Below are positions 5,084 to 19,467 of a DNA stretch of 20,728 bases, one piece after another. The stretch spans positions 1 through 20,728 of the forward strand of contig CAIPTQ010000081.1 of the NCBI GenBank assembly GCA_903868035.1. Direction: 5' to 3'. Numbering within the stretch: position 1 is the stretch's first letter; the number at the start of each line of letters is the position of its first letter. The DNA is from an uncultured Phycisphaerales bacterium (GTDB lineage Bacteria > Planctomycetota > Phycisphaerae > WQYP01). The notes under the pieces are model-generated. The model saw nothing but the letters and a program-made list of their open reading frames with translations, did not search any database and was not told the DNA's origin. Made by a program: the position numbers and the translations under genes.

Positions 5084-5157
5084 GCGCCCATAGCTCAATC
5101 GGATAGAGCATCCGCCTTCTAAGCGGACGGTTACAGGTTCGAGTCCTGTTGGGCGCG
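5084..5157 (+). tRNA. tRNA-Arg (anticodon TCT)
   Basis: A complete cloverleaf can be drawn. The acceptor stem pairs GCGCCCA (5084-5090) with TGGGCGC (5150-5156). The D stem pairs GCTC with GAGC (5093-5096 and 5106-5109). The anticodon stem pairs TCCGC with GCGGA (5111-5115 and 5123-5127) around the loop CTTCTAA, with anticodon TCT at 5118-5120 (reads AGA/AGG). The T stem pairs ACAGG with CCTGT (5133-5137 and 5145-5149) around the loop TTCGAGT. The variable loop is 5 nt. The discriminator base is G at 5157 and no CCA is encoded. The gene faces the - strand operon, whose last stop is only 14 bp further on. Confidence 0.96.
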
Positions 5158-5171
5158 TTTCCTGCCGCCAT

Positions 5172-5840
5172 TTACATGCGATGCTCGGGACGCAACGTGT
5201 CCCGGGGGCTCGCGTGCCACGCCGAGCGCCAGTCCTTGGGGGGGATGATGGCGTCCAGGCGGTCGAGCTGGTGAATCGCCTGCAGCCGTTTGTAGATCAG
5301 TTGCCAGGCGCAGGGGCGGTTGGCGTCGCACTCGCAATGTTCCTCGGTGCTGCCGCCGCAGGGGCCGTTGAGCAGGCGCTTGGCGCACCGCGTGACCGGG
5401 CAGATGCCGCCGAAAGTGGCCAGCATGCAGTCCCCGCAGCCGAGGCATTTTTCGGTCCAGACGGCCTGCTCTTCGAGGATGCCCAAAAACTGCGTGTTCA
5501 GCGCCGCGTAGACGGGCTTGGTGGGGAAGCGCTCCGCCAGCGCCTGCACGCCCGCGCCGCAGCCGAAGGAAATCACCGCGTCGTTCCGCTCCACCAGCGG
5601 CACCAGATCCTTGATGAATTCGTTTTCGCACTGGCGCTCAATGGTCGCCTGTTCAATCTCCACCGGCTTGCCGGAAAGCTTCCGGGCCATGCGCACGGCA
5701 TAGGCGGCGATGCCCACCTCGCGCTCGCCGCCGGCCAGGCACACGGTCACGCACGTGCCGCAGCCGACGAACAGAACCTTGTCGTGGTTCCTCGTCAGGC
5801 CGATGAGTTCCTTGATGGGTTTGGGGCTGGCGACAATCAT
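5172..5840 (-). CDS. metV: MetV, Fe-S/zinc partner subunit of methylenetetrahydrofolate reductase
   Basis: A 222-residue cysteine-rich protein of the MTHFR C-terminal (MetV) family, which partners MetF in organisms whose reductase does not use NAD(P)H directly. The hallmark block is complete: CLGCGDC (C132, C135, C138), GGICPVTRCAK (C147, C152), NGPCGGS (C161), then C169, C171 and CAWQLIYKRL (C177). An N-terminal group VGCGTCVTVC (C27, C30, C34) and FGCGAG (C94) may bind a second centre. In Moorella thermoacetica the MetV-MetF pair reduces methylene-THF to methyl-THF within a complex with HdrABC-MvhD, and all of those partners are in this operon. I chose the ATG at 5840 because it forms an ATGA overlap with the upstream gene and follows AGGAA; an 18-residue-longer frame exists. 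This is the last gene of the operon. Confidence 0.93.
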   Translation of the reverse strand: MIVASPKPIKELIGLTRNHDKVLFVGCGTCVTVCLAGGEREVGIAAYAVRMARKLSGKPVEIEQATIERQCENEFIKDLVPLVERNDAVISFGCGAGVQALAERFPTKPVYAALNTQFLGILEEQAVWTEKCLGCGDCMLATFGGICPVTRCAKRLLNGPCGGSTEEHCECDANRPCAWQLIYKRLQAIHQLDRLDAIIPPKDWRSAWHASPRDTLRPEHRM

Positions 5841-6343
5841 GAAATTCCTGCACTTTCTGGAGCGCGGCTCGTTGCGGATTTTTCGGCGGGACACTTCAAT
5901 GGGTTGGGGCCCAGTTCGCGGATGACCCGCACGATTTCCTGGACCCGCTGGACAAACATGGGGGCCATCGCGGCCGACAGATTGTTCATGCTGAGGCGGC
6001 GGCCGCCGATGCCGATCTCGTCGAGGATGCGCTGGATACGTTCCACCCGCTTGCGGGCGCGGAGATTGCCTTCCTGGAAGTGGCAGCCGCCTTCGAGGCA
6101 GCCGGCGAGCAGCACGCCGTCGGCGCCGTGGTCAAAGGCCTCCAGGATGTGTTCCATTTCGACCTTGCCGGTGCAGGGCGAGTGGACGACGCGGATGTTG
6201 GCCGGGTACTGCATGCGCTTGGCCCCGGCGAGGTCGGCGGCGGCATAGGCGCAGTAGTTGCAGCAAAAGGCCACGATCATCGGTTCCCACGCGTGGGGAG
6301 CGGCAGTCGCGGTGGAAGGTGATTGTTCGAGCTGTTGGGTCAT
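5837..6343 (-). CDS. mvhD: MvhD/FlpD-type iron-sulfur protein (first copy)
   Basis: A 168-residue homologue of the methyl-viologen-reducing hydrogenase delta subunit, a [2Fe-2S] protein that delivers electrons to HdrA. Cysteines fall in the family pattern: FCCNYC (C27, C28, C31), SPCTGKV (C57) and GCLEGGCHFQ (C82, C87), followed by EGN. The first 20 residues are Ala/Ser/Thr-rich and probably flexible. It is joined to HdrA upstream and metV downstream by ATGA overlaps and has a strong GGAGG ribosome binding site 6 nt before the ATG. No NiFe-hydrogenase large or small subunit lies in the window, so this MvhD must take electrons from another donor, as in MetFV-HdrABC-MvhD complexes. Its position between HdrA and MetV fits a bridging role. 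Confidence 0.92.
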   Translation of the reverse strand: MTQQLEQSPSTATAAPHAWEPMIVAFCCNYCAYAAADLAGAKRMQYPANIRVVHSPCTGKVEMEHILEAFDHGADGVLLAGCLEGGCHFQEGNLRARKRVERIQRILDEIGIGGRRLSMNNLSAAMAPMFVQRVQEIVRVIRELGPNPLKCPAEKSATSRAPESAGIS

Positions 6344-9300
6344 GCCGGGCCTCCGGTCAGGAGCAATTCATCAAGCATGGCGGAAATCTGCAGGTCCTCC
6401 TGATGTTGCAGGGTGATGGTGCGCGCCGGGCAGGAGGCGGCGCAACTGCCGCAGCCCATGCACTTGGCACCCTGGATTTCCGCCTTCTTGAGATCGTTGA
6501 TGAAGGGGGCGCCGTAGGGGCAGACCTTCACGCACGTGGCGCACGCCACGCAGTTGTCGGCATTCACCTTGGCAATCTGCCCGGCGATGGTGAGGAAGGC
6601 CTTGGACAGCACCGTGGCCGCCCGTCCGGCGACGGCCTTGGCCTGGGCGATGGTCTCGTCGATGAAGCGCGGCGAGTGCGCCAGGCCGCAGATGAATTCA
6701 CCCTCGTTGGCCAGATCGACGGGGCGAAGCTTGGGATGGGCCTCCAGGAAGAAGCCGTCGGTGGTCAGAGCGGTGCGGAGCATGGACGAGAGCGCGGGAT
6801 TATCCTCGGCGGGGGCCATGCCGACGCTGAGCGCCAGCAGGTCCGGGTGGAGGATGACTTCGCGCTGCGTGCCCGCGTCGGTGACGCGCACCGTGAGCTG
6901 GCCGGTCTCCTCGCTGACGGCCGGATCGAGCGCTTCGGGGTGGCGGATGAAGATGACGCCTTTTTCGCGGGCTTCCTGGTAGGCCAGTTCGCGGAAGCCG
7001 TAGGTGCGGATGTCCTTGGCCAGGACGATGACGGTGGCGTGGGGCAATTTCTCTTTCAGGGTGAGGGCGTTTTTGACGGCTTCGGAACAGCAGACGCGGC
7101 TGCAATAGGAGTGTTGGGCGTTGCGCGATTCAACACACTGGATCATCACGATCGTGGGGCTGTTCCCCAGGTTCTTGGGCAAGGTGCCGGCGGAGAGTTG
7201 GGCTTCCAGCTCGCGCTGGGTGGTGACGCGGGGGTGCTTGCCATGAAGGTAGAGGGAGGTCTCGCGCTGCCGTGCGCCCGTGGCAATGATCGTCACGCCG
7301 TGATTGACGGTGATTTCGGCGGGTTGGCCGGTGTCCGCTTTTTTGGCCAGGCGCGTCTTGAAGTTGCCGACATGGCCGGCGACTTGCAGGGGTGTGGTGC
7401 GGAGGTGGACGGTGATCTTGGGATGCGTGGTGACCCGGCGCTCCAGGTCGGCCAGGAAACCGCCGACGTCGGCACGCTCCAGCGTCGTGTGAATGTGCCG
7501 CAGGTTCCCGCCGAGTGCGGCTTCCTTTTCCGTCAGATGCACCTGGAAGCCCTGATCGGCAATCGCCAGGGCGGCCGTCATGCCCGCCAGCCCGCCGCCG
7601 ATGATGAGGGCGGAGGCGGTGACGGCCAGCATGCCGGTCTCCAGCGGGCGCAGGTGCCGCGCCCGGGCGACGGCCATGGCCATCAGGTCGAGGGCCTTCT
7701 CGGTGGCGGCCACGGGGTCTTCGCGATGCACCCAGGAGCACTGGTCGCGGATGTTGGTCATGGCGAACAGATAGGGATTCAGTCCCGATTCCCGCAGCGT
7801 TTCCTGGAACAGCGCCTCATGGGTGCGCGGCGAGCACGACGCCACGACCACGCGATTGAGCCGTTTCTGCAGGATCACATCCTTGATGTGCATGAGGCTG
7901 TTGTCCGAGCAGGTGTACAGGCTGGCCTCGGCGTGGATGACGTTCGGCAGTTTCAGCGCGTGTGCGGCGACGGCCTGGACATCAACCACCGAGGCGATGT
8001 TGTGCCCGCAATGGCAGATGAACACCCCGATGCGCGGGGCCTCGTCCGTCACGTCGCGCTCCCAGGGATACTCGCGGCGCTGGATCATCGTGCCGCGGGC
8101 GGAGGCAAGCTGCTCCATGGCGCACGCGGCGGCGGCGGAGGCCTGGGCGACGGATTCCGGGATGTCCTTGGGCTCCTGGAAGGCGCCGGCCACGTACAAC
8201 CCCGGCCGCGATGCCGCCATGGGCGTCAGCCGATCGGTTTGGCAGAAGCCGAACTCGTTTAGGTCCAGGCCCAGTTTCTGCGCCAGCGCCTTGACCGAAG
8301 CGCTGGGCCGCATGCCCACCGAGAGCACGACCATGTCGAATTCCTGCTGCAGTTCCTTGCCGGCCTCATCGAAGTGGCGCACGCGCGTGTTCCGCGTGCC
8401 GGGCATCTCCACCACGCGCGAGGGCATGGCCCGGATGAACTGCACCCCGTGTTCCTCGCGGGCGCGGGTGACGTAATTGTCGAATTCCTTGCCGAAGGCG
8501 CGGATATCCATGCAGAAAATGGAAATCTTCAGCCCTTTTTCGTGCTCCAATGCGACCATGGCTTCCTTGGTCGCCGACATGCAGCAGATGCTCGAGCAGT
8601 AGCCGCAACCCCGCGCCGCATCCCGCGACCCGACGCATTGGATGAAGGCGATGCTCTTGGGGTGCTTGCCGTCCGAGGGCCGCAGCACCTCCCCGCCCGT
8701 CGGACCCGCGGCGCTGAGCAACCGCTCGAACTGCGCGCTGGACAATACGTTGGCATAACGCCCGTGGCCGAACTCGCCCCGCAGCGACGCCTGAAATTCC
8801 TCAAACCCCGGCGTCAGGATCACCGACCCCACCCGCACCGTTTCCGTCACCGCCTGCATGTTGTGATTGATCGCCCCCGGCCCGCACGCCGTCACGCACA
8901 AGCCGCACTCGCTGCACATGCCGCAGGCCAGGCAGCGCTTGGCCTCGGCCACGGCCTGTTCGGCGGTGTACCCCAGGTCGATCTCCCGGAAACTCGCGCT
9001 CCGCTCCGCCGCGGCGGCCTGCGGCATGGGTTGGCGCGCCACCTGCGGGGCCTCGGGCCTCGGATTCGGCGCGGCGTCTTTTTTCGCGCCGGGCGCGGCG
9101 GCGGCCCCCTGCGCCTGCGTGCCGCGCAGATACGCGTGGATCGCCTCGGCGGCCCGGTGGCCCTGGGCCATGGCGTCGACCATGGAGGCGGGGCCCAGCA
9201 CGGCGTCGCCGCCGGCGAAAATGCCGGGGATGCCGGTGGCCAGCGTCTCTTTGTTGACGACAATCCGCCCCCCCGGTCCCGTGGCCACCTGGCCCAGGTT

Positions 9301-10854
9301 GCTATTGTCAATGCCCTGGCCGATGGTCACGATGATCGTGTCGGCCGCGAGGGTGGTCTTCTGCGCATCGTCAAATTGCGGGGCAAACCGGCGGTTTTCG
9401 TCAAACACCCGGGTGCAGGCGCGGAAGGCCATCCCGGTAACCTTGCCGCCGGTGCTGACTACCTCCGTCGGCCCCCAACCGCAATGAAACTCGATCCCCT
9501 CTTCAAGGGCCTCGGCGGCCTCCCAGGAATGCGCGGGCATCTCGTCGCGCTTTTCCAGACTGGCCAAAACAACGTTCCTGACGCCCGGCAGCCGCTTGGC
9601 GCAGCGGGCGGCATCCATCGCCACATCGCCGCCGCCGATGACCAGCACGTTGGGCCCAATGGTTGGTTTCCCGCCCGCGTTGACTTCCTGCAGGAACTTG
9701 AGCCCCGGCCAGACCTCCGGTGCATCTTCACCCGGGATGCCCAGCTTCCTGCTGGTCCAGGCGCCGATGGCGGCAAAGATGGCGTCAAACTTGCCCGCCG
9801 CGTCGCCGTTGGTGGCCTTTGCGGGCTTGAGCAGACTCGCGGGACTCGCCACCCGGCAGCCCGTCCGCACCTCGACGCCCAAATCGGTGATGTGCTTGAG
9901 TTCCTGGTCCAGCACTTCGGCCGGCAGGCGATACCGCGGAATGCCGTAGCGGAGCATCCCGCCCAGGTGCGGCATGGCTTCGAAAATGGTGACGGCATAC
10001 CCCAGCTTCCGCAGGTCCGCCGCGGCGGTGATGCCCGCCGGGCCGCCGCCGATGATCGCGACCCGTTCCTTCTGCGGCTCCACCGGCGGTAAGGGTTCGT
10101 CCGCCAGTTCGGGATGCGCATACACGTAGTCGGCGGCGAAACGCTTGAGGTCGCGCACCGCCAGGGCGCGGTCCACGTCCTTGCGGTTGCAGTCCGTTTC
10201 ACACGGATGCTGGCACACGCGCCCGCACGCCGCCGGCAAGGGGCACCGCTTGCGCACCAGTTCGTAGGCTTCCTTGAATTTGCCCACCGCGATGAGCGCC
10301 ACGTACCCCTGGACGTTCACGCCCGCCGGACAGGCGCTGCGGCAGGGAGCCGCGCCGGCCGCCTTGGTGATGGCGAACAGATTGGGAATCGCCTGCGGAT
10401 ACAGTCGGGAGATCGCCTTGCGGGTGCCCAGCTTGCGGTCAAACTCATTGGGCAGGCTGACCGGGCAGGCTTCCGAGCACTCGCCGCACGCGTTGCACTT
10501 GCTGGCCTCCACGTACCGGGCCCGCCGGCGGATTTGCACCTGGAACTGCCCCGGCGTGCCGCTGATGCCCTCCACATCCGCCAGAGTGATGATGTCGATG
10601 TTCTTGTTCCGGGCGCAGGCCACCAGCTTGGGCGAGAGAATGCACATCGCGCAATCGCCGGTGGGAAAGGTCTTGTCCAGCCGCGCCATGCTCCCGCCGA
10701 TGGCCGCCGCCGAATCCACCAAATACACCTTGAATCCGGATTCCGCCAGGTCCAGCGCCGCCTGGATGCCCGTGATGCCCGCGCCGACGACCATCACCGC
10801 CCCGAGTGGCTCTTCCGCCGTGCCGTTGGTTGAATTTGGTTTTTCACCGATCAT
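6340..10854 (-). CDS. hdrA: HdrA-GltD-HdrA fusion flavoprotein
   Basis: A 1504-residue soluble flavin/Fe-S protein. Residues 18-60 form an HdrA-type FAD Rossmann start (VVGAGITG), with C68, C71 and C80 after it and a [4Fe-4S] motif C120/C123/C126/C130. Residues about 165-578 are a complete GltD/NfnB-like insert: cysteine-rich domain (C171, C175, C204, C210, C214, C218, C222), FAD motif GGGPAG (269-274), NAD(P) motif GGGDVAMD (407-414) and FAD-closing GIFAGGDAV (544-552). An Ala/Pro-rich linker (about 580-620) leads to C641/C644/C647/C650/C653/C657, and the first HdrA unit resumes (C740, CGYCSSICC 750-758, FAD end about 885-912). A second HdrA unit starts at about 942 (ICHCGH; C982, C1007), with GGGLAG (1086-1091) and C1240/C1251/C1255/C1256. 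Ferredoxin motifs C1435-C1445 and C1465-C1475 close the protein. HdrA flavin is the electron-bifurcation site in known complexes; NAD(P)H input here is inferred. Confidence 0.93.
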   Translation of the reverse strand: MIGEKPNSTNGTAEEPLGAVMVVGAGITGIQAALDLAESGFKVYLVDSAAAIGGSMARLDKTFPTGDCAMCILSPKLVACARNKNIDIITLADVEGISGTPGQFQVQIRRRARYVEASKCNACGECSEACPVSLPNEFDRKLGTRKAISRLYPQAIPNLFAITKAAGAAPCRSACPAGVNVQGYVALIAVGKFKEAYELVRKRCPLPAACGRVCQHPCETDCNRKDVDRALAVRDLKRFAADYVYAHPELADEPLPPVEPQKERVAIIGGGPAGITAAADLRKLGYAVTIFEAMPHLGGMLRYGIPRYRLPAEVLDQELKHITDLGVEVRTGCRVASPASLLKPAKATNGDAAGKFDAIFAAIGAWTSRKLGIPGEDAPEVWPGLKFLQEVNAGGKPTIGPNVLVIGGGDVAMDAARCAKRLPGVRNVVLASLEKRDEMPAHSWEAAEALEEGIEFHCGWGPTEVVSTGGKVTGMAFRACTRVFDENRRFAPQFDDAQKTTLAADTIIVTIGQGIDNSNLGQVATGPGGRIVVNKETLATGIPGIFAGGDAVLGPASMVDAMAQGHRAAEAIHAYLRGTQAQGAAAAPGAKKDAAPNPRPEAPQVARQPMPQAAAAERSASFREIDLGYTAEQAVAEAKRCLACGMCSECGLCVTACGPGAINHNMQAVTETVRVGSVILTPGFEEFQASLRGEFGHGRYANVLSSAQFERLLSAAGPTGGEVLRPSDGKHPKSIAFIQCVGSRDAARGCGYCSSICCMSATKEAMVALEHEKGLKISIFCMDIRAFGKEFDNYVTRAREEHGVQFIRAMPSRVVEMPGTRNTRVRHFDEAGKELQQEFDMVVLSVGMRPSASVKALAQKLGLDLNEFGFCQTDRLTPMAASRPGLYVAGAFQEPKDIPESVAQASAAAACAMEQLASARGTMIQRREYPWERDVTDEAPRIGVFICHCGHNIASVVDVQAVAAHALKLPNVIHAEASLYTCSDNSLMHIKDVILQKRLNRVVVASCSPRTHEALFQETLRESGLNPYLFAMTNIRDQCSWVHREDPVAATEKALDLMAMAVARARHLRPLETGMLAVTASALIIGGGLAGMTAALAIADQGFQVHLTEKEAALGGNLRHIHTTLERADVGGFLADLERRVTTHPKITVHLRTTPLQVAGHVGNFKTRLAKKADTGQPAEITVNHGVTIIATGARQRETSLYLHGKHPRVTTQRELEAQLSAGTLPKNLGNSPTIVMIQCVESRNAQHSYCSRVCCSEAVKNALTLKEKLPHATVIVLAKDIRTYGFRELAYQEAREKGVIFIRHPEALDPAVSEETGQLTVRVTDAGTQREVILHPDLLALSVGMAPAEDNPALSSMLRTALTTDGFFLEAHPKLRPVDLANEGEFICGLAHSPRFIDETIAQAKAVAGRAATVLSKAFLTIAGQIAKVNADNCVACATCVKVCPYGAPFINDLKKAEIQGAKCMGCGSCAASCPARTITLQHQEDLQISAMLDELLLTGGPA

Positions 10855-10860
10855 AAGGCT

Positions 10861-11757
10861 CTACCTTGCTGACTCAGGAATGCCGACACGGGTCAGGAGC
10901 GGCCAGGGATTGACGACGAGGCGGTCGAGGCCCAGTTCCTTCACGGAACACCCCAGCGCCAGGCCCAGCAACTGCGTGAAATAAAACACCGGCAGATTAA
11001 AGGCCTCTTCATATTTCTTGTTGATGTCCTGCTGCCGCAGGTCCAGGTTGAGCTGGCACAGCGGGCACGCCGTCACGATGCAGTCCGCCCCGGCGGCCTT
11101 GGCCATCGCCAGTATCTCCCGCCCCAGTTCGCACACCACCGCCGTGTCCGTGATCGAACAGCTCGCCCCGCAGCACTCCGTCTTGTGCGGCCAGTCCAGC
11201 GGCGTGGCCCCCGCGGCCCGCATCAATTGGTCCATCAGTGTCGGATTTTCCACATCGTCAAAGGCGATCTCCGGCGGCCGCGACAGCAAACACCCGTAGT
11301 AACACGCCACCTTCAGCCCCGCCAACTGCCGCCGCACCTTGCCCGCCAGCGCCGCCACGCCAATGTCCCGCGCTAAAATCTCCAGCAGATGCACGATCGG
11401 CGTCTGCCCGTCATAGTCCGCGCCCACGGCCTGGGCCACCGCACCGCGGAAGCCCGCATCCGCGGCAATGTGCAGATTGGCCAAACGCAAACGGCTGTAA
11501 CACGCGGCACATCCAACCGCAACCTTCGTCCGCCCGCCATTCACCCCCATCTTCGCCGCCGCCGCTAAATTCTGCGCCGGTAGCGCCGCCGCCAGCAGCG
11601 GATCGGTGGAATGTGCCGCCGTCGAGCCGCAACAAATCCAATCCGGTATCTCCGGCAGCTCAATCCCCAGCGCCCGCGCCACCGCCAGCGTCGATAGCCG
11701 GTAGTCGGCCGCGGTGCCTTCCATGGAACAACCCGGATAAAAAGCGTATTTCATCAT
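10861..11757 (-). CDS. hdrB: HdrB, heterodisulfide reductase-type subunit B
   Basis: A 298-residue protein with two complete CCG domains, which in methanogen HdrB bind the two non-cubane [4Fe-4S] clusters that cleave the CoM-S-S-CoB disulfide. Domain 1 is C10, C42-C43-G and C83/C86. Domain 2 is C156, C195-C196-G and C231/C234. All ligands are present, so the clusters should form. A bacterium using tetrahydrofolate would not be expected to have the CoM/CoB substrate; in Moorella-type complexes the HdrBC branch passes electrons on or meets an unknown acceptor. ATG at 11757 forms an ATGA overlap with hdrC; a second ATG follows directly. It ends 6 bp before hdrA. Confidence 0.94.
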   Translation of the reverse strand: MMKYAFYPGCSMEGTAADYRLSTLAVARALGIELPEIPDWICCGSTAAHSTDPLLAAALPAQNLAAAAKMGVNGGRTKVAVGCAACYSRLRLANLHIAADAGFRGAVAQAVGADYDGQTPIVHLLEILARDIGVAALAGKVRRQLAGLKVACYYGCLLSRPPEIAFDDVENPTLMDQLMRAAGATPLDWPHKTECCGASCSITDTAVVCELGREILAMAKAAGADCIVTACPLCQLNLDLRQQDINKKYEEAFNLPVFYFTQLLGLALGCSVKELGLDRLVVNPWPLLTRVGIPESAR

Positions 11758-12329
11758 TTCTTGCCCCCCTCTTTCGCCGTCCGCGTGCCCTGCGCCGCGC
11801 GCTTGAACATTTCCTGCCGCCGCCCCTTGTCCCCGACGGACTTGGGGAAAAACGGCAGCTTGCGCTTGGCCAGCATCATCGGCAGCTTGGCCATGTCGTC
11901 GAAGAATCGCCGCGTGCGCAGCTTATATGCGGTCATCAGCCCCGGCTCGAACACGCGCCCGCGCTTCCGCACGCCGTTCAGGAATATCTCGTTAAACGTC
12001 GCCACCGTGGTCTTGGCGGCCTTGCCCTCGGCCTGGCTGAGCCGCCGCAATTCATCGTTCAGCGTCGCAATGTCCACCTGCATCGGGCACCGCGTCACGC
12101 ACGTCTGGCACGACGTGCATTCCCAGATCATCCGGCTCGACAATACCTCCGCCCGCTGGCCCAACTGTATCATCCGCACCAGCTCATGCGGCGAAATGTC
12201 CGCGCGGCCCGCCACCGGGCACCCATTGGAACACTTGCGGCACTGCATGCACGACATCACATGCGTTTCCGCCACCAGCGCCGCCAGGCTGTCCGCGAAA
12301 TCCGGAGTCACGGGTGAATGTTTGCTCAT
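11754..12329 (-). CDS. hdrC: HdrC, heterodisulfide reductase-type subunit C
   Basis: A 191-residue soluble ferredoxin-like protein. Two [4Fe-4S] motifs, C27/C30/C33/C37-P and C71/C74/C77/C81-P, match HdrC, which wires HdrA to HdrB. No membrane-anchor (HdrE-like) segment is present, so it belongs to the soluble HdrABC type. The C-terminal third is basic and helical (many K and R), typical of the family's docking tail. I chose the ATG at 12329 because it has GGAG 8 nt upstream and forms an ATGA overlap with the preceding gene. A longer open frame to 12407 reads into that gene's codons. It overlaps hdrB by ATGA downstream. Confidence 0.93.
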   Translation of the reverse strand: MSKHSPVTPDFADSLAALVAETHVMSCMQCRKCSNGCPVAGRADISPHELVRMIQLGQRAEVLSSRMIWECTSCQTCVTRCPMQVDIATLNDELRRLSQAEGKAAKTTVATFNEIFLNGVRKRGRVFEPGLMTAYKLRTRRFFDDMAKLPMMLAKRKLPFFPKSVGDKGRRQEMFKRAAQGTRTAKEGGKK

Positions 12330-14926
12330 TTTTTCTTCTCCGTGGCTGCGGCCAGCACTTGCAGCTTCACCGCGCTGACCTTGCGATACACTTCCGCCGG
12401 CGGGCACACCCGCCCATCGACCGTCAGCAGTTCCTTGACGCTGATGCCGAAGAGCCGCTCATTTTCCTGCAAATAGGGCCGTATGAGCCGCCAATCCTGC
12501 TCCGTCAGCGGCGAATACACCCCGCCGTTGAGCTGCCCCTGCACCATCTTGGAATGCGGATCGCGAATGTAGATCGCCCCGCCGCTGGCCAGCGAAAACA
12601 AATTGCTCCCCGGATACGGCGCCGGCAGTTCGCCCAGCTTGCCGTGGTCGTCGAACGCCACGCCATTAAGAACCACAAAACCCCCGCCATTGATCGGATC
12701 GCCGGCCATGAACGACTCCGCCAGAAAATCCAGGCACGTGCCGTTGATCACCACCCGCGGCTTGCCCACCGCATTGATCAGCGGCCGCCCCGCGGCATTG
12801 CCCAGCACATACACCTCGCCCCCCTTGGCGCCGTACATGAAGGTCTGCCCCACATCGCCATAAATGACCAGCTTGCCCAGCTTCATGATCTGCGCCACCT
12901 GGTCCTGGGCGTTGCCATGGACATACAGGTGCAGCCCGTCGGCCCCGCTGGCGATGTAGTCGCCGCTCGAGCCATACAGGTCGATGCGCACGCCCGCGGT
13001 GTTGGGGCCCAGCCCCGCGCCGTGGAAACGCTGCCCGCGCAGCCGATACACCGCGAAATTCCGCCAGCCCATCTGATACGCCTTGCGCATCAGCACGGCA
13101 TCGCACCCGTCGCCTTCCGCCGGGAACCTTTCGGCATCGATCACCAGCAATTCCTCCCCCGGCGCGGGGGCCGCCAGGCGATCGCACGTGGTCCAATCCA
13201 CGCGGCGGAAATAACCCGTGCCCGGACTTCCACAGACCGGGGCCGAGTCGAATATCTTGTCCAGCGCGTCCTCCAGAACCCGCCGCACGCTGCTGCGGTG
13301 CTTGTCCCCGGTGTCGAAGCAGCGGTCATGCAGCAGCGTCAGGGCCGCAATGGCCGTCACCCGGGCCGGCGTAGTCGTCGCCTTGCTGACGACCGTCTGG
13401 CAGAACCGCTTGAGGGCGTCCGGCGTCCAGCGCGGCAGATCCTGGACGTAGTCGAACACTTGCCGGGTCTCCCCATTCCCCAGCCACTGGCTGACGCGCG
13501 CCGCTTCGTCGGGCTGTTCCGCCGCCAACTCCACCAAGTCGCAGCGCACGGGGCCGGTGTCCACCGATACCTGGTGCCCGAACTTGTCGGTGCATTCAAA
13601 GGTCTTGCGCCCCTGGGCGTCCTCGCCAATGGTGAAGATGAACGCACCGCCGTCCGTGTGGCTGCCGCCGCGCGCGTTCCAGTAGCGGTCGGCGACCGGA
13701 CAGAACCGCGGATCCTCGCGCGCCAGGCTGCGCAGCGTGGCGTCGATGGCCTGCTTCTCCGAGCAGATCAGACCGATCTTCGCTTCCCCGCTGCCGGCCA
13801 GCGCGAACACCTGCGGCCGCAACATCGCCGTGTCCGTAATGCCCAATAGTTGGAATTGCTTCTTGTCCGGCTGGCTCCGGGCGATGATGAAGAACCACGG
13901 CCCGTCCGGCGAGGCGTGGATGTGCGCCGCCTGTATCTTCCGGTAGATCGCCTGCTTGGCCGGCGGCAATTGGTCGAAATCCAGCTCCGTCGTCGGCGCC
14001 AGCGCCTCAATAATGTACTCCAGCGGATACTTGTACACCCGGTCCCACAGGTCAAACAACTGCACCGAAACTTCCGTGTCGGTGAGGAACTGCTGCCGGA
14101 TGTTGCGCTGCTTGAGGTAGTCGCACACCGAGTAATAGTTGGCGAAATCGCCATTGTGGACCAGCGCCTCGTTGAGCCCCACGAACGGGTGCGCCCCGCC
14201 CGGATGCCACACCCGGCCTTTCGTCGGATACCGCTGATGCGCGATCCACACGTGGGCCTTCATGTTCTGCAGGTTGTAATACGTCACATTCTGCTCGGCA
14301 AACCCCACCATCTTGAACACCAGCAGGTCGCGCCCGTGGCACAGCACAAAGGCGCGCTTTTGGCCCAGCGAGGCATAGTAGGCGTCGTTGAGCCGGTAGG
14401 AATTCCGCCACATGAACTCATCTTCCAGCTCGCGCAACGGCAGACGCTCCAACTCGGTGGCTTTGGCGAAGGTCCGCAGCACCTCCGGCTTGACGCGCAC
14501 GAAATAGCGGTGGATGTCCGGTGGCCGGACTTCCAAACCCCGGATGTCCCGGTAGTCGTCAATATGCCCCACCCGCGCCGCGTGCGCCACGTCAAAGTTC
14601 GGCAAAATGAACTTTTCTTCCAGTTCGCCGTGTACCGCATTGTCCAGCAACGCGATCTGCAATAGATAATGCGAATCCAGCACTTCCCGGCTCACGCCCA
14701 TCTCGCTGGGCACCAGGCCCACCGCCGCTATGCCCCCACCTTTCCCGTTGCCCCGGTTCTGCATCTGCACCGACGGTTCATAGATCATGCGCCCCGCCAC
14801 CGGCACCGTACACGCAAACCCCGTCACCCCGCAGCCCCCTTCATCGGCCGCCTTGCCCCCCTCCACCGGTGCGGCGCCATAGACCTGCGACCGCGCGGCT
14901 AAAAGTTTTTCGGCATGCTGGCTCAT
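12326..14926 (-). CDS. Glutamine amidotransferase fused to glutamate synthase GXGXG domain
   Basis: An 866-residue protein combining the first and last domains of the glutamate synthase large subunit without the central FMN domain. Residues about 32-420 are a class II glutamine amidotransferase: likely nucleophile C32 in GGCGVTGF, H230-Q231-R232 with YPTKG, AHPF, and oxyanion-region NGD at 258-260. C32 must become N-terminal, so removal of a 31-residue propeptide is expected, as in GltB. Residues about 620-800 are a GXGXG beta-helix with repeated glycine motifs (GLGPNTAG, HGNAQDQ, GDVGQTFMYGAKGG). The stretch between is less recognisable. It should hydrolyse glutamine and supply ammonia to the FMN/Fe-S protein encoded just upstream. 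The ATG at 14926 has GGAG 8 nt upstream and an ATGA overlap with that gene; the frame continues 78 codons further back but only over that gene. Confidence 0.88.
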   Translation of the reverse strand: MSQHAEKLLAARSQVYGAAPVEGGKAADEGGCGVTGFACTVPVAGRMIYEPSVQMQNRGNGKGGGIAAVGLVPSEMGVSREVLDSHYLLQIALLDNAVHGELEEKFILPNFDVAHAARVGHIDDYRDIRGLEVRPPDIHRYFVRVKPEVLRTFAKATELERLPLRELEDEFMWRNSYRLNDAYYASLGQKRAFVLCHGRDLLVFKMVGFAEQNVTYYNLQNMKAHVWIAHQRYPTKGRVWHPGGAHPFVGLNEALVHNGDFANYYSVCDYLKQRNIRQQFLTDTEVSVQLFDLWDRVYKYPLEYIIEALAPTTELDFDQLPPAKQAIYRKIQAAHIHASPDGPWFFIIARSQPDKKQFQLLGITDTAMLRPQVFALAGSGEAKIGLICSEKQAIDATLRSLAREDPRFCPVADRYWNARGGSHTDGGAFIFTIGEDAQGRKTFECTDKFGHQVSVDTGPVRCDLVELAAEQPDEAARVSQWLGNGETRQVFDYVQDLPRWTPDALKRFCQTVVSKATTTPARVTAIAALTLLHDRCFDTGDKHRSSVRRVLEDALDKIFDSAPVCGSPGTGYFRRVDWTTCDRLAAPAPGEELLVIDAERFPAEGDGCDAVLMRKAYQMGWRNFAVYRLRGQRFHGAGLGPNTAGVRIDLYGSSGDYIASGADGLHLYVHGNAQDQVAQIMKLGKLVIYGDVGQTFMYGAKGGEVYVLGNAAGRPLINAVGKPRVVINGTCLDFLAESFMAGDPINGGGFVVLNGVAFDDHGKLGELPAPYPGSNLFSLASGGAIYIRDPHSKMVQGQLNGGVYSPLTEQDWRLIRPYLQENERLFGISVKELLTVDGRVCPPAEVYRKVSAVKLQVLAAATEKKK

Positions 14927-16548
14927 GATTTGGCTCCTTCCCGCGGCGGCTCCGCCAGGTAATACAGCAGGTCCGGCCGCCCGCGCAGGGCGCTCGTGGA
15001 TGGCACCCCGAGCCGCGCCAGTACGTCCGTGATCCGTTCCCGCCACGCGTTCATCAGGTTGATCAGGCGCTGGCTGGCCCAGTCGAGGCTCATCTGCATC
15101 ATCAGTTCCGGGTCCGTGCTGGCGATCCCGCGCGGACACCCGCGCCCGGATTCGCAGCACGCGCAGCGCACGCAGCCCAGCGCCACCATGTCCGCCGTGC
15201 CGATCACCACGCCGTCGGCCCCCAGGGCGATGGCCTTGATCACGTCGTCCGGCGTGCGGATGCCGCCCGAGACGATCAGCGTGACCTTGTCCCGTATGCC
15301 TTCGGTGGTCAGGAACTTGTGGACCTTCGGAATGGCGAACTCGATGGGCATGGCGATGTTCTTCTTGGCGATGTCCGGCGCGGCGCCGGTGCCGCCGTAG
15401 CTGCCGTCCAGATGAATGATGTGCGCCCCGGCGCAGTAACTCCCCACCGCCACCATGTCCACATCCGTCGGCGTCGAGACCTTCACGCTCACCAGCGCCT
15501 TGGGATTGACTTCCTTGATCCAGTCCAGGTGCTTCTTGTGATCCTCCACGCTGTATACGCTGTGGAACGGGAACGGCGAGAACAGGGCGTTGCCCGCCAC
15601 GGCCTCGCGCATCCGCGCCACCGGCGGCGTGTTCTTGTCCCCCAGCAGGTGCCCGCCCAGCCCCGGCTTGGCGCCCTGGGCGTACTTGAATTCCACGATG
15701 CGCACGCGCTGGATCGTCTCCTCGCGCACGCCAAACAGCCCCGTCGCCACCTGCGTGATCACGTGGTCGTCATACGGCTTGAGCCGGTCGTGATAGCCCC
15801 CCTCGCCCGTGCAGGTGAAGGTGTTCCAGGCCACGGCCGCGCGGGCCTTCGCCAGGATCGTGTGGATCGAGACCGAGCCGAATGACATGCCCCCGCCGTA
15901 TATGGGCAGGTCGATCTTGATCTGCGGGCGGCCGTCGCGGCTGCGGTTCAGTTCCAGCGTCGTGTCGATTTCCTTCGGATCGAGCTTGTGCCCGGCGTCT
16001 TCCGGCAGGTTGATGCGGATGCGGTCAAAGCCGCCCCCGCTGTTGCCATGGCGGTACTCCCCCTCCTGCGGCATGTGGCCGGTTTCGGCCATGTGCCAGG
16101 TGGCTAGTATCAGGTCGCTGCTCCAGCGATAGTCGCCCATCGTCTCCGTCACCGGATTGCGCAGCAGTTGCAGGGCCTGCTGCGGGCAATGTTCCACGCA
16201 ATAATGATCCGTGGCGGCGCATGCCGGGCCCACGCACAGGTGGTCCTGCGGGCGCAGGACATATTTGTAACCCGCCGGCTTGCTGTGGACGCCCTCGGGG
16301 CACATCGCGGCGCACGTGCCGCACGCGGCGCAGTCGGCCGAGCGGCGGATGGCGTAGCGCCCGAGTTTGTTCCGGTAGCGGTCGGGAACGGGGCGGACTT
16401 CGCGGGTGACGGCCGCTTGCGGCGTGCCATTAAGGCCAATGGCTTCCGGCTGGGCGGCGGCCGCCGGGTGGCCGTGCGCGGGGCTGGGGGGAGCGTCCGC
16501 CACCTCACAACCCGCATATACGTCGATGTTATTTCCAGACAAGGTCAC
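14923..16548 (-). CDS. FMN-binding glutamate synthase central domain with ferredoxin module
   Basis: About 541 residues. Near the N terminus is a two-cluster ferredoxin module: CAACGTCAAMC about 35 residues after a low-complexity A/P-rich stretch, then CVGPAC...CVEHCP. The rest is the glutamate synthase FMN barrel with its signatures: GGGMSFGS, the loop KYAQGAKPGLGG, GSYGGTGAAP, VSGGIRTPDDV and the 3Fe-4S region CVRCACC...CPRG. This is where 2-iminoglutarate is reduced to glutamate using ammonia from the amidotransferase. It resembles the archaeal-type stand-alone GltS with an added ferredoxin. The start is uncertain. A GTG at 16548 with GAGG 6 nt upstream is preferred; a TTG at 16566 would add 6 residues. 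Either way the gene overlaps the upstream gene by 20 or 38 bp. Confidence 0.9.
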   Translation of the reverse strand: MTLSGNNIDVYAGCEVADAPPSPAHGHPAAAAQPEAIGLNGTPQAAVTREVRPVPDRYRNKLGRYAIRRSADCAACGTCAAMCPEGVHSKPAGYKYVLRPQDHLCVGPACAATDHYCVEHCPQQALQLLRNPVTETMGDYRWSSDLILATWHMAETGHMPQEGEYRHGNSGGGFDRIRINLPEDAGHKLDPKEIDTTLELNRSRDGRPQIKIDLPIYGGGMSFGSVSIHTILAKARAAVAWNTFTCTGEGGYHDRLKPYDDHVITQVATGLFGVREETIQRVRIVEFKYAQGAKPGLGGHLLGDKNTPPVARMREAVAGNALFSPFPFHSVYSVEDHKKHLDWIKEVNPKALVSVKVSTPTDVDMVAVGSYCAGAHIIHLDGSYGGTGAAPDIAKKNIAMPIEFAIPKVHKFLTTEGIRDKVTLIVSGGIRTPDDVIKAIALGADGVVIGTADMVALGCVRCACCESGRGCPRGIASTDPELMMQMSLDWASQRLINLMNAWRERITDVLARLGVPSTSALRGRPDLLYYLAEPPREGAKS

Positions 16549-17935
16549 CGAACGCCTCTTTTTCAATATCTTCCAAAAACATCGCGCGGCCCATTTCGCC
16601 GCGCAGCCGCCGGATTTCCCGGATGCCCATCGCCCCCAGCACCTCGATCAACTGCGAATGCCACGCCCCCATCAAATTCACCATCCGCTGCGCCGCATAC
16701 GCCAATTCCACGCTCTGCAAGCCCGCCGGACACGTTCCCGGGCACGCGCCGCTCTGGTATGCCTCCCGGCATACCCGGCAGCCCAGACCCACCAGCAGCG
16801 CCACATTCACGGCCACCAGGTCGGCGCCGCAGATGATCGCCTTGGCCATGTGTTCGGCCAGTGCGATCCCCCCGCCCGCGATCAGCGTGATCTCGTCCCG
16901 CCGCCCGTCCTTGACCAACCGGCCGTGGATTTCCCGCAAGGCGTCCTTGAGGTGCCGCCCGGGCGTGCCGTCGGCCAGTTTCTCGCAGCCATGCAGGTCC
17001 GCGCACAGGTGAAACACCTTGAACGTGCCGGCCGCCAGTTGCCCCACCCGTTCGGCCGCATCGGCGGTCAATTCCATCCGCAGCGCCAGCACCGCCTGCG
17101 GATTGATCTCCGCGATGCGCCGCGCCAGCAACTGCATGTCCCCGGGACCGGTCAGTTCCACCATGCGCACCCCCGCCAGCGCCTCCTGACAGCACGCCAG
17201 CGTCGCTTCGGTCACCAGCGGCACGATGTTCGCGTGCTGCTCCGGCGGAATATCGCCAACATGCGCCGCCGGTATGACCGCCAGCGTGTGCAGCTTCTTG
17301 GCCGCCGCGGCCCGGGCCAGCGACCACAATACGCCCGGCATCGGCCAGGGCGGCAGGTCCAGCAGCGCGGGCATCTGGATTTCAATCAGCGAAGCGCCCG
17401 CACAGGTCATCGCCCCGTCCGCCCCAAAGCTCAGCCGCATCGGCTTGACCCCGATGTCCACGCTGGTGCTGATATACTCGCGCCCGTGAATCCCGTCGCG
17501 CGTCGGCCGCACGATTTCCGACATGTCCGTCCATATCCCATCAAAACCCGGCCCCGAAAACCGCCCCCGATACCCCGCGCCCGATACCGGAATGCGCCCC
17601 GCGTCCGCCTGGATCCACGTCGTGGCAATCATCTCGGGCTGCCAGTATTCGTCGCCCAGGTCCAGGAACTCGGGGTTCACGCCGATGGCCAGCAGCCCCT
17701 TGGTGCATCCCTGCACGCACGACAGGCACGCCTTGCATTCATAGTGCGTTTCCATCGGCGCCGCCGGATCGCGGTTGGCCGCGGTCTCGTGCTTGTACAC
17801 CTCATAGGTGCAGCGCGGCTTCACGCAGTTGGTGCAGCGCGCACAGTCTTCACGCCAGTCCACGCTGCCGTATTTGCCCACCCGGCGGAACTTGCCGGGC
17901 GTGAGGGCGACATGAATGTGATATTTCTCAGGCAT
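16529..17935 (-). CDS. Divergent glutamate-synthase-like Fe-S flavoprotein
   Basis: A 468-residue paralogue of the next gene's product. It has an N-terminal ferredoxin module (C31/C34/C37/C42 and C67/C70/C73/C77) and a barrel whose C-terminal half aligns with glutamate synthase: LIAGGGIALAEHMAKAI, GADLVAVNVAL, a cysteine group C386/C389/C398/C402 where the 3Fe-4S ligands lie, and the family C-terminal helices (RMVNLMGAW). The QGAKPGxGG loop and the GGTGAAP substrate/FMN signature are missing; in their place are unrelated segments. It may bind FMN and clusters but is unlikely to make glutamate alone, so an electron-transfer or structural role beside the intact paralogue is plausible. The ATG at 17935 follows metF by 16 bp and has only a weak, distant GAAGG; a TTG at 17980 is the alternative. 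Confidence 0.82.
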   Translation of the reverse strand: MPEKYHIHVALTPGKFRRVGKYGSVDWREDCARCTNCVKPRCTYEVYKHETAANRDPAAPMETHYECKACLSCVQGCTKGLLAIGVNPEFLDLGDEYWQPEMIATTWIQADAGRIPVSGAGYRGRFSGPGFDGIWTDMSEIVRPTRDGIHGREYISTSVDIGVKPMRLSFGADGAMTCAGASLIEIQMPALLDLPPWPMPGVLWSLARAAAAKKLHTLAVIPAAHVGDIPPEQHANIVPLVTEATLACCQEALAGVRMVELTGPGDMQLLARRIAEINPQAVLALRMELTADAAERVGQLAAGTFKVFHLCADLHGCEKLADGTPGRHLKDALREIHGRLVKDGRRDEITLIAGGGIALAEHMAKAIICGADLVAVNVALLVGLGCRVCREAYQSGACPGTCPAGLQSVELAYAAQRMVNLMGAWHSQLIEVLGAMGIREIRRLRGEMGRAMFLEDIEKEAFGDLVWK

Positions 17936-17951
17936 GCTGTTTGTCAGACCT

Positions 17952-18845
17952 TCAGGCTTGCGCCAATCCGGCCTCCTCAACTATAGTGGCGACGGCCAGC
18001 GCGCCGCCGGACAAAATGTGTATGCCGCGCACGCCTGCGATGGACTTTACCTTTTTTGCCACCTCCGATGCAATGGCTATGCCTTCTTTTGCCGCGTCCG
18101 CCGCGTCCGCCAGCCGGTTCACGACCTCCGCGCCCACCCCACTGCTCTTTTTCGCCTGTAGCAGTTTCGCCTGCTCCACGCTCGTCAGCGGCAGCACGCT
18201 GGCGATGATCGCCGCCTGCTTGTCTATCCCCGCCGCCCGCACCGCCTCCATCCACTCGGCAAACCCGGCCACGTCGAACACCGCCTGCGTGATGAAAAAG
18301 CCCGCCCCCGCCGCCACCTTCTTCTTGAGCCCCATCAGATTCAACGCCATCGGCCGCAGATAGGGATGTGCCGCCGCCCCCAGGAGCAGCTTCGGCGCCG
18401 CTTCCAGCGGCTTGCCCGCGAAATCCACCCCCTGGTCGCACATCGCCTTGAGCCCCCGTATCAACTGCACCGGATCGATGTCGTACACCCCCGCCGCCTG
18501 GGCGTCCGCCCCCAACGACTGATGTTCCCCGCTCAAACACAACACGCTCCGCACCCCCACCGCCGCCGCCCCCAGCACATCCGCCTGCAGCGCGATCCGG
18601 TTGCGGTCCCGCGTGACCACCGACAGCACCGGCGCGGCTTTCTCCCCCGCCAGGATCGCCGCGCACGCCAGCGCCGAACCCCCGTCCCCATGCGGATTGT
18701 CCGCCACCACCACCGCATCCACCCGCGCCGGCAGCGCGCCCGCCAGTTTGCGCACTCCCGCCGCGTCCGGCCCCCGCGGGGGCAGGCATTCGACGGACAA
18801 TGTCAGGCGCCCGGTCTGCAGCGCCTCGGCCAGATCAGTCTTCAT
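17952..18845 (-). CDS. metF: Methylenetetrahydrofolate reductase, MetF subunit
   Basis: A 297-residue TIM-barrel flavoprotein that reduces 5,10-methylene-THF to 5-methyl-THF. Family marks are E19 in LSVECLPPRG (catalytic acid region), TRDRN (79-83), LCLSGEH (102-108), FFITQAVFD (183-191, the FITQ substrate loop) and the C-terminal GIHILSGG. It is of normal length for the single-domain bacterial/MetFV type and has no extra NAD(P)H domain. Together with MetV and HdrABC-MvhD it matches the hexameric reductase of Moorella thermoacetica. The ATG at 18845 follows GAGG at slightly short spacing and overlaps the upstream gene by 11 bp; a GTG at 18854 is possible but lacks a binding site. Confidence 0.94.
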   Translation of the reverse strand: MKTDLAEALQTGRLTLSVECLPPRGPDAAGVRKLAGALPARVDAVVVADNPHGDGGSALACAAILAGEKAAPVLSVVTRDRNRIALQADVLGAAAVGVRSVLCLSGEHQSLGADAQAAGVYDIDPVQLIRGLKAMCDQGVDFAGKPLEAAPKLLLGAAAHPYLRPMALNLMGLKKKVAAGAGFFITQAVFDVAGFAEWMEAVRAAGIDKQAAIIASVLPLTSVEQAKLLQAKKSSGVGAEVVNRLADAADAAKEGIAIASEVAKKVKSIAGVRGIHILSGGALAVATIVEEAGLAQA

Positions 18846-19467
18846 TTTCCTCACCGTTTTCTGTGACCATGACTTCTTCTTCCGGCGCCGGCGGCCTACC
18901 CAGCGGATTGGCCGGACAGCTTCCCAGCCGGGCGGCCACCTCGGCCGTCACCGCCGCCGCCTGGCGCGAAAATTCGTCCTCCCCGCTCTCCGCCTCCGCC
19001 GCGCCTTCCCCGGCGGCCAGATCCTGCCGCGCCGATCCGGGCAGATGCACCATCAATATCCGTTCGCCTCCCACCCCGATCTCCGCCAGCATTTGCTTGA
19101 CGTATTCGCCGCGCCGGCCGGCGCGCCGGGAGCCTTCCAGAAAATGACAGTTGTCTTCCGCGCAGCCGACGATGCACACCAGATCCGCCCCCTCCTCGAT
19201 GGCCCGCAGCAGATGCTCCGGCTGCAGCCGGCCCGTGCAGGGAATCGTAATCTCCTGGACCGCGCACGCTTGCGGAAAAAGCCCCGCGCTCGAATGCCGC
19301 GACCACGGCCCGCGCTCCGGGATCGCACGCACGCAATTCGTGCAGACAAACGCCGTAACCCTTTTCTGCGCGGCGGTGCTGGTGACGACGGTGTCCGGCG
19401 AATGCTCCACTCTCGACAACTCCTTGGCGAATTCCAAATTCACTTGACGCGGAAGCCGACCTGCCAT
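18835..19467 (-). CDS. MvhD/FlpD-type iron-sulfur protein (second, divergent copy)
   Basis: A 210-residue protein and the first gene of the operon. The family pattern is present: FVCTNC (C42, C45), an extra C68, IPCTGRL (C77) and GCAEDNCHFLEG (C102, C107), then the YVKQMLAEIGVGGERI helix region. Compared with the copy at the far end of the operon, it has a longer N terminus, a 20-residue insertion between the first cysteine pair and C77, and an acidic C-terminal tail after an extra C184. Two non-identical MvhD proteins suggest two electron-entry or exit points on the HdrA fusion, perhaps one per HdrA unit. The ATG at 19467 has a modest AGAG upstream; the open frame continues to 19545, but that stretch lacks family similarity. 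Confidence 0.88.
   Translation of the reverse strand: MAGRLPRQVNLEFAKELSRVEHSPDTVVTSTAAQKRVTAFVCTNCVRAIPERGPWSRHSSAGLFPQACAVQEITIPCTGRLQPEHLLRAIEEGADLVCIVGCAEDNCHFLEGSRRAGRRGEYVKQMLAEIGVGGERILMVHLPGSARQDLAAGEGAAEAESGEDEFSRQAAAVTAEVAARLGSCPANPLGRPPAPEEEVMVTENGEENED

Follow-up and report, generated by a model that had tools for sequence, protein, structure and literature searches.

A recurrent ten-gene operon combining a probable split glutamate synthase with FlpD, MetV, MetF-like, and HdrABC-MvhD proteins in an uncultured Phycisphaerales bacterium

Why should the subunits of a methylene-tetrahydrofolate (methylene-THF) reductase of the MetFV-HdrABC-MvhD type enclose a three-gene glutamate synthase, and through which proteins would such a synthase receive its electrons? 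This question is raised by contig CAIPTQ010000081.1 of an uncultured Phycisphaerales bacterium (assembly GCA_903868035.1), analyzed here over its whole stretch of 20,728 nucleotides (the window), where ten tightly packed genes occupy positions 19467-5172 of the minus strand in the order FlpD1, MetF, Glt3, Glt4, Glt5, HdrC, HdrB, HdrA fusion, MvhD, and MetV (Glt3, Glt4, and Glt5 are labels coined for this analysis). Glutamate synthase is a main gate of ammonia assimilation; it is well known to take its electrons from NAD(P)H, by way of GltD, or from ferredoxin. Judged from sequence, the operon may well encode a split glutamate synthase that receives its electrons through an exapted FlpD-MetV(-MetF) module, to which the ten-gene form adds HdrABC-MvhD, a reading to which we assign a probability of about 0.5.

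Gene content and recurrence of the operon

Pfam/NCBIfam family searches backed every gene identity, and the ten genes that an initial annotation had listed on one strand are all present (Table 1). MetF and MetV are not an adjacent pair, standing at opposite ends of the operon. The annotated count of six ATGA or longer overlaps among the nine junctions also holds, with an 11-base overlap between FlpD1 and MetF and 4-base ATGA overlaps at Glt4/Glt5, Glt5/HdrC, HdrC/HdrB, HdrA/MvhD, and MvhD/MetV. HdrB and HdrA are separated by a gap of 6 bases, MetF and Glt3 by a gap of 16 if Glt3 starts at ATG (an overlap of 29 if at TTG), and Glt3 and Glt4 overlap by 20-38 bases, the start there being non-ATG and uncertain; some gene starts were refined by reading the sequence. 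Promoter-like signals were not in excess (one found, 2.1 expected).

A genome collection with one genome per species (84,980 species) was scanned with two peptide patterns, giving 323 confirmed loci of which the best 80 were kept; because of these patterns and this selection, the 80 loci are biased towards similarity to the window and towards its conserved motifs. Nine of the 80 loci carry all ten genes with order and strand unchanged; they belong to Myxococcales (L003, L004), an Anaeromyxobacter metagenome-assembled genome (MAG; L007), Acidobacteria/Bryobacterales (L005, L006), an actinobacterial MAG (L011), Planctomycetota (L012), and Armatimonadota (L054), with L075 as the ninth. The neighborhood is thus no single occurrence, and since the identical order recurs in this way the arrangement is not due to chance. 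Glt4 and MetV are each in two pieces in L003, HdrA is split in two pieces in L046, and L001, L008, L014, L026, and L068 look like the ten-gene form truncated where the fetched DNA stops.

A smaller core of FlpD, MetV, MetF, and the split glutamate synthase occurs in Desulfobacterota, Nitrospirota, Chloroflexota, and Spirochaetes MAGs. The arrangements include FlpD-MetV-MetF-Glt3-Glt4-Glt5 (e.g. L055, L024, L063, L045), FlpD-Glt345-MetV-MetF (L018, L029, L052), FlpD-Glt345 (L017, L036, L041), and the six-gene core with a second, complete HdrCBA-MvhD-MetV-MetF set behind it (L028, L030, L032). For 42 of the 80 loci, the fetched DNA extends 5.5 kb or more upstream and 2.2 kb or more downstream of Glt5; in these, Glt3 was present in 42/42, an FlpD-type gene in 37/42, MetV in 29/42, and MetF in 28/42, although 2.2 kb may miss a far-end MetV. 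In samples of whole phyla, which include genomes already found by the peptide patterns, a Glt5 relative was detected at E 1e-100 in 6/294 genomes from the phylum of L001; with the threshold at E 1e-200, the counts were 13/297, 3/193, and 74/297 for the phyla of L006, L007, and L055 (Desulfobacteraceae), respectively. By hand count, at least 29 of these 74 have MetV on the same contig within ~11 kb of Glt5. Fourteen loci were newly fetched from the samples; L105-L108 are the ten-gene form or reduced versions of it, and the other ten (L109-L118) carry Glt genes without any FlpD, MetF, or MetV match.

Some variants differ at other points. A GlcD-like FAD_binding_4 protein precedes Glt345 in the place of FlpD in L039 (5051-6937) and L040 (5180-7087), and is another electron-input variant; L067 and L078 have a similar-sized open reading frame (ORF) ahead of Glt345, the family scan of this position covering L039 and L040. 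A PPDK_N protein follows Glt5 in L039 (12854-15469) and L067 (12527-15148). In the more distantly related L110, L113, L114, L117, and L118 the Glt4 ORF measures 2.5-3.2 kb and may be a Glt3-Glt4 fusion; neither FlpD nor MetF was matched in the DNA fetched for these loci. In the Spirochaetes MAG of L045 (12802-18812), FlpD-MetV-MetF-Glt345 is followed by a 1531-residue ORF, probably that genome's full GATase_2 match, and by an ORF of about GltD size matching the HdrA query, so that this locus may have two neighboring glutamate synthases. Behind the cluster of L024, in a Nitrospiraceae MAG, come a second protein of the Glu_synthase family and one of the Pyr_redox_2 family (13788-17855).

Glutamate synthase proteins and the HdrA fusion

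The synthase half of the operon looks genuine. Glt4 aligns to solved glutamate synthases (GltS; 2vdc_A/1ea0_A, E 4.5e-53) and retains the motifs KxAQGAKPGxGG, SPxPxHxxYSxED, and GGTGA(A/S)P in register with them. The alignment of Glt5 to GltS spans 581 residues and places model residue 32 opposite GltS residue 1, which we take to be Cys; C32 is invariant in 44 aligned rows, 33 of which stem from the scan, where one of the two patterns contains C32. Eight Cys of Glt3 are conserved. Four conserved Cys in Glt4 (C465, C468, C471, and C477) lie at the site of the three Cys that ligate the [3Fe-4S] cluster of canonical GltS, and this site could possibly hold a [4Fe-4S] cluster. Like GltBD and ferredoxin-dependent GltS, the window has a glutaminase with a likely N-terminal Cys, a site for flavin mononucleotide (FMN) and 2-oxoglutarate, and a GXGXG domain. 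Unlike them, its synthase is split in three genes with extra ferredoxin-like motifs and a four-Cys instead of a three-Cys cluster motif, and the ten-gene operon holds no free GltD gene.

Separate ORFs for GltS domains have been reported in Archaea, and putative F420-dependent glutamate synthases in anaerobic methanotrophic archaea (ANME) (PMC8097209, PMC9012536). The window shares the distribution of the domains over separate genes; in the available text of these reports, however, the electron input is an FrhB-type F420 protein or is unstated, whereas the window has FlpD-MetVF-HdrABC. A few relatives lie near glutamine synthetase (glnA), carA/carAB, or nrpR genes. No nitrogen-specific neighborhood was seen around the ten-gene form: the ten ORFs examined beside nine loci of its clade either had no family match or fell into unrelated families, among them a sigma-54 activator, for which a relation to nitrogen is possible but not necessary.

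The fusion nature of HdrA was confirmed, and its partner can now be named as a GltD/NfnB-like NAD(P)H domain. The order within the protein is an HdrA N-part, the GltD/NfnB-type insert (residues ~163-650), the remaining HdrA, a second HdrA part, and a C-terminal two-cluster ferredoxin. The insert scores above the cut-off for NCBIfam PRK12771 (NF009410), matches GltD and NfnA chains, and contains the motif GGGDVA (GXGXXA); structure matches of the fusion are 5odc_A, 9bov_A, and NfnA 9n5u_A. Because the insert resembles GltD/NfnB-type domains, a relative of the missing GltD is present inside HdrA, the only place in the operon where such a domain is found. The insert is filled to at least 0.93 in 17 of the 19 aligned rows fetched for the ten-gene clade, or 18 of 20 when the window is counted; in the two remaining rows (L046 and L068) HdrA is in pieces and its N-part is missing from the row used. 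Comparable proteins are on record: HdrL of Desulfobacterium autotrophicum is an HdrA with a GltD insert and adjacent mvhD (PMC2702500), ANME-1 have an HdrA carrying an NfnB-like insertion (PMC9012536), and HdrA with a GltD insert has been classified as type III, with the GXGXXA pattern tied to NADP rather than NAD (PMC12054007). The HdrA of the window is like HdrL and type III HdrA in its inserted domain and adjoining mvhD, but the available text of PMC2702500 and PMC12054007 gives no link to glutamate synthase or MetF, both of which the window has.

Conserved Cys are present in the remaining subunits as well. C42, C77, C102, and C107 of FlpD1 occur in 19/19 ten-gene-clade rows (C45 in 13/19), and C27, C28, C31, C57, C82, and C87 of MvhD are likewise conserved in 19/19. 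Eight Cys of HdrC are found in 15/15 rows, and the presumed CCG-ligand Cys of HdrB in 14-15 of 15, except C152 (11/15). MetV has 12 Cys conserved across both compared sets.

The MetF active site and the association of MetV with the synthase

The catalytic Asp is present in 3 of 21 MetF rows of the ten-gene clade, compared with 57/57 other MetFs (78 rows covering at least 75% of the profile, from 85 matching ORFs of which seven shorter ones were dropped); the window has Glu, L006 keeps Asp, and in L003 the Asp and the catalytic Glu are both gone. The Asp is found in 22/22, 3/3, and 4/4 rows of the remaining arrangements. At least one of the three residues Asp, Glu, and Gln is lost in 37 of 120 close MetF homologs when Glu is counted as kept at the Asp position, one of these losses perhaps being a gap. 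MetF is also the least conserved of five compared subunits in the ten-gene clade (mean identity 0.523, MetV 0.729), and the reverse is seen in the comparison set (MetF 0.678, MetV 0.633). Judged by its catalytic residues, the MetF active site in the ten-gene clade is under relaxed constraint. Decay of MetF to a pseudogene was considered and rejected, as the frame is open in the 21 rows used and nonsynonymous divergence (dN 0.09-0.38) is below synonymous divergence (dS 0.49-1.85) in four clade pairs, with ORFs taken stop to stop and more distant pairs near dS saturation.

In the MetV tree, the ten-gene clade groups with the synthase-linked MetV and not with the Hdr-linked second copy (SH-aLRT, Shimodaira-Hasegawa-like approximate likelihood ratio test, 85-90, unstarred), and in the MetF tree it falls outside both MetF copies of the doubled set of L028, L030, and L032. 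An origin by complementary loss from that doubled set, in which MetF would descend from the first pair and MetV from the other, is rejected by these two trees. The fetched DNA of L048, L064, L069, and L077 holds a complete MetV and no MetF match, MetF elsewhere in the genome being possible; ~10 kb downstream was fetched for L064 and L077. In L033, MetF appears only as a tail match of 33-35 residues between FlpD and Glt3. The Hdr half erodes among members of the ten-gene clade: HdrCB is lost in L105, HdrCB and most of the HdrA middle in L002, L013, and L107, the same parts together with any MvhD match in L106, and HdrABC-MvhD altogether (zero Hdr matches) in L009, L010, and L108, while FlpD1-MetF-Glt345-MetV is retained in all eight. 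The erosion of Hdr, the presence of MetV without MetF, and the grouping in the MetV tree argue that MetV and FlpD go with the synthase. A sequence comparison of MetV with solved structures gave no match.

Table 1. Genes of the operon and adjacent features in the window.
Feature	Position	Strand	Description and matches
FlpD1	18835..19467	-	Head-of-operon FlpD/MvhD-like [2Fe-2S] protein, 210 aa; PF02662 E 2.6e-21; additional ATG further upstream (19545)
MetF	17952..18845	-	MetF-like flavoprotein (MTHFR family); catalytic Asp position is Glu107
Glt3	16529..17935	-	Eight-Cys ferredoxin-like N-terminus and diverged Glu_synthase barrel; PF01645 partial, E 4.7e-14; start ATG 17935 or TTG 17980
Glt4	14923..16566	-	Ferredoxin-like Cys motifs and FMN/2-oxoglutarate glutamate synthase domain; PF01645 E 3.8e-94; start uncertain
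Glt5	12326..14926	-	Class II glutamine amidotransferase and GXGXG domain (GATase_6+GXGXG); Cys32 likely nucleophile
HdrC	11754..12329	-	Two [4Fe-4S] motifs; TIGR03290 1.6e-17, under that model's cut-off
HdrB	10861..11757	-	CCG-domain protein; PF02754; TIGR03288 2.7e-54
HdrA fusion	6340..10854	-	1504 aa; NF040770; NF009410 (PRK12771) above cut-off; PF14691
MvhD	5837..6343	-	Second FlpD-family protein; PF02662 1.7e-47
MetV	5172..5840	-	Cys-rich, DUF5981; PF12225 1.3e-35
ORF upstream of operon		-	Presumably GyrA C-terminal part, as read from its sequence
tRNA-Arg (TCT)	5084..5157	+	Downstream of operon; ends 14 bases from the MetV stop codon
466-aa ORF	1336..2736		Presumably L-fucose/arabinose isomerase-family protein, as read from its sequence

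Competing explanations and the electron path

The MetFV-HdrABC-MvhD methylene-THF reductase is described from Moorella thermoacetica (Mock et al. 2014, cited in PMC6085437 and PMC9012536), where HdrA is a double HdrA (PMC9012536). The window cluster likewise contains metF, metV, hdrA, hdrB, hdrC, and mvhD, and its HdrA is double. Compared by the published description, it differs in that a three-gene glutamate synthase and a second FlpD lie among these genes, MetF and MetV are at opposite ends, HdrA has the GltD/NfnB insert, and the MetF active site of the clade is relaxed. The open-access literature searched, outside which most subscription papers fall, contained no description of an operon or complex of MetV/MetF with glutamate synthase. 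Host genomes were searched for 42 of the 80 loci (19 of the ten-gene clade and 23 of other types); these are drafts, many of them MAGs, with completeness not given, and absences from them are weak and only suggestive. CdhC was found in 5/19 genomes of the ten-gene clade and in 21/23 of the other types, and two or more methylene-THF reductase (MTHFR) matches in 19/19 of the former, counting the operon's own and gene pieces.

The initial annotation had proposed a single supercomplex that couples methyl-THF formation and glutamate synthesis through shared bifurcating flavins; both activities would be present in it, the folate reaction running as methylene-THF reduction or, in reverse, as methyl-THF oxidation. 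A MetFV-type module and a split synthase are indeed linked, and the linkage is conserved, but the coupling to methyl-THF is poorly supported in the ten-gene form because its MetF site is relaxed, MetV occurs without detectable MetF, the hosts have further MTHFR matches, and CdhC is found in few of them. The low conservation of MetF relative to the other subunits, reversed in the comparison set, points the same way. Even with the complete MetF of other arrangements, the frequent CdhC of their hosts, and the Glu19/Glu107/Gln187 set kept in the window's close clade in its favor, we regard the proposal as improbable; for the six-gene forms, whose MetF is complete, coupling to methyl-THF is possible. 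Equally doubtful in our judgment is that a MetFV-HdrABC-MvhD reductase and a glutamate synthase of the ferredoxin type work as distinct enzymes and are only co-transcribed, to serve anaerobic one-carbon and nitrogen assimilation or to use a common reduced donor. This would suit the synthases lacking MetVF, as FlpD-Glt345 (L017, L036, and others) or behind the GlcD-like protein, and the second complete HdrCBA-MvhD-MetV-MetF sets after the synthase, but the synthase of the window sits between MetF and MetV, both remain with the synthase where Hdr is absent (L009, L010, L108), and the MetV of the clade groups with synthase-linked MetV. That the synthase-like proteins act on another substrate with glutamine-derived ammonia or electrons, for example in an N-methylglutamate-synthase-like reaction, is highly unlikely: the degenerate barrel of Glt3 and the four-Cys motif of Glt4 would fit, whereas the conserved Glt4 motifs, the long Glt5-GltS alignment, and the glnA, carA/carAB, and nrpR genes near some relatives argue for glutamate synthesis.

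Several observations weigh against an exapted FlpD-MetV(-MetF) input. The window MetF keeps Glu19, Gln187, and the residues of the flavin adenine dinucleotide (FAD) region, and of 120 close homologs 43 have the full Asp/Glu/Gln set, which leaves folate activity possible; among the first 20 rows, the window's close clade, 18-19 combine Glu19 and Gln187 with E or D at position 107. The Glu substitution itself may still permit activity, and an active mycobacterial Mfr is reported to have Glu at the Asp120 position (PMC11094777). L048 and L069 end less than 200 bases after Glt5, where MetF further downstream is possible. FlpD-Glt345 lacks both a MetF and a MetV match in 8/42 loci, and neither protein is therefore indispensable. 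A full-length canonical GltB (GATase_2) match in 10/19 ten-gene-clade genomes (partial matches: one strong, G001, and two weak) means that the ten-gene synthase is not the sole glutamate synthase there. Finally, gene linkage is no proof of a complex.

If the operon nevertheless encodes a split synthase with exapted input, Glt5 would provide the glutaminase and channel domain, Glt4 the FMN/2-oxoglutarate site, and Glt3 Fe-S clusters and a degenerate barrel. In place of the usual separate GltD subunit there would be FlpD and MetV, with or without MetF, as a module co-opted from a MetVF-type methylene-THF reductase. MetF, its folate activity possibly lost, might serve in this module as flavin relay or scaffold. 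In the ten-gene form this input would be lengthened by HdrABC-MvhD, with HdrA bearing the NAD(P)H domain, and the ten proteins could form one physical complex. Electrons would then run from NAD(P)H to the FAD of the HdrA insert and on to the FAD and Fe-S clusters of HdrA, through the [2Fe-2S] clusters of MvhD/FlpD1 to MetV/MetF, and via the Fe-S clusters of Glt3/Glt4 to FMN, where 2-oxoglutarate and glutamine-derived ammonia would yield glutamate. The HdrA step may be bifurcating, with ferredoxin or an HdrBC acceptor at the end of one arm. The synthesis of glutamate with NAD(P)H as donor is strongly exergonic, and HdrA could for this reason drive ferredoxin reduction. A flavin-bifurcating glutamate synthase in the full sense, in which NADPH electrons are split at HdrA, the glutamine:2-oxoglutarate reaction drives ferredoxin reduction, and MetV and a MetF losing its folate site act as electron-transfer subunits, is a tentative and rather unlikely version.

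Among the 23 host genomes of other types, full-length GATase_2 was found in one and a weak partial match in two, and the split synthase of this branch may therefore be the main glutamate synthase of some anaerobes, the absence of GltB being only suggestive. An FlpD-MetV-HdrABC input would add a donor system for glutamate synthase, and such a branch would give MetV a context in which it can be studied independently of folate. If the synthase were bifurcating, ammonia assimilation would become an energy-conserving step, and glutamate synthesis would possibly join the reactions that drive electron bifurcation.

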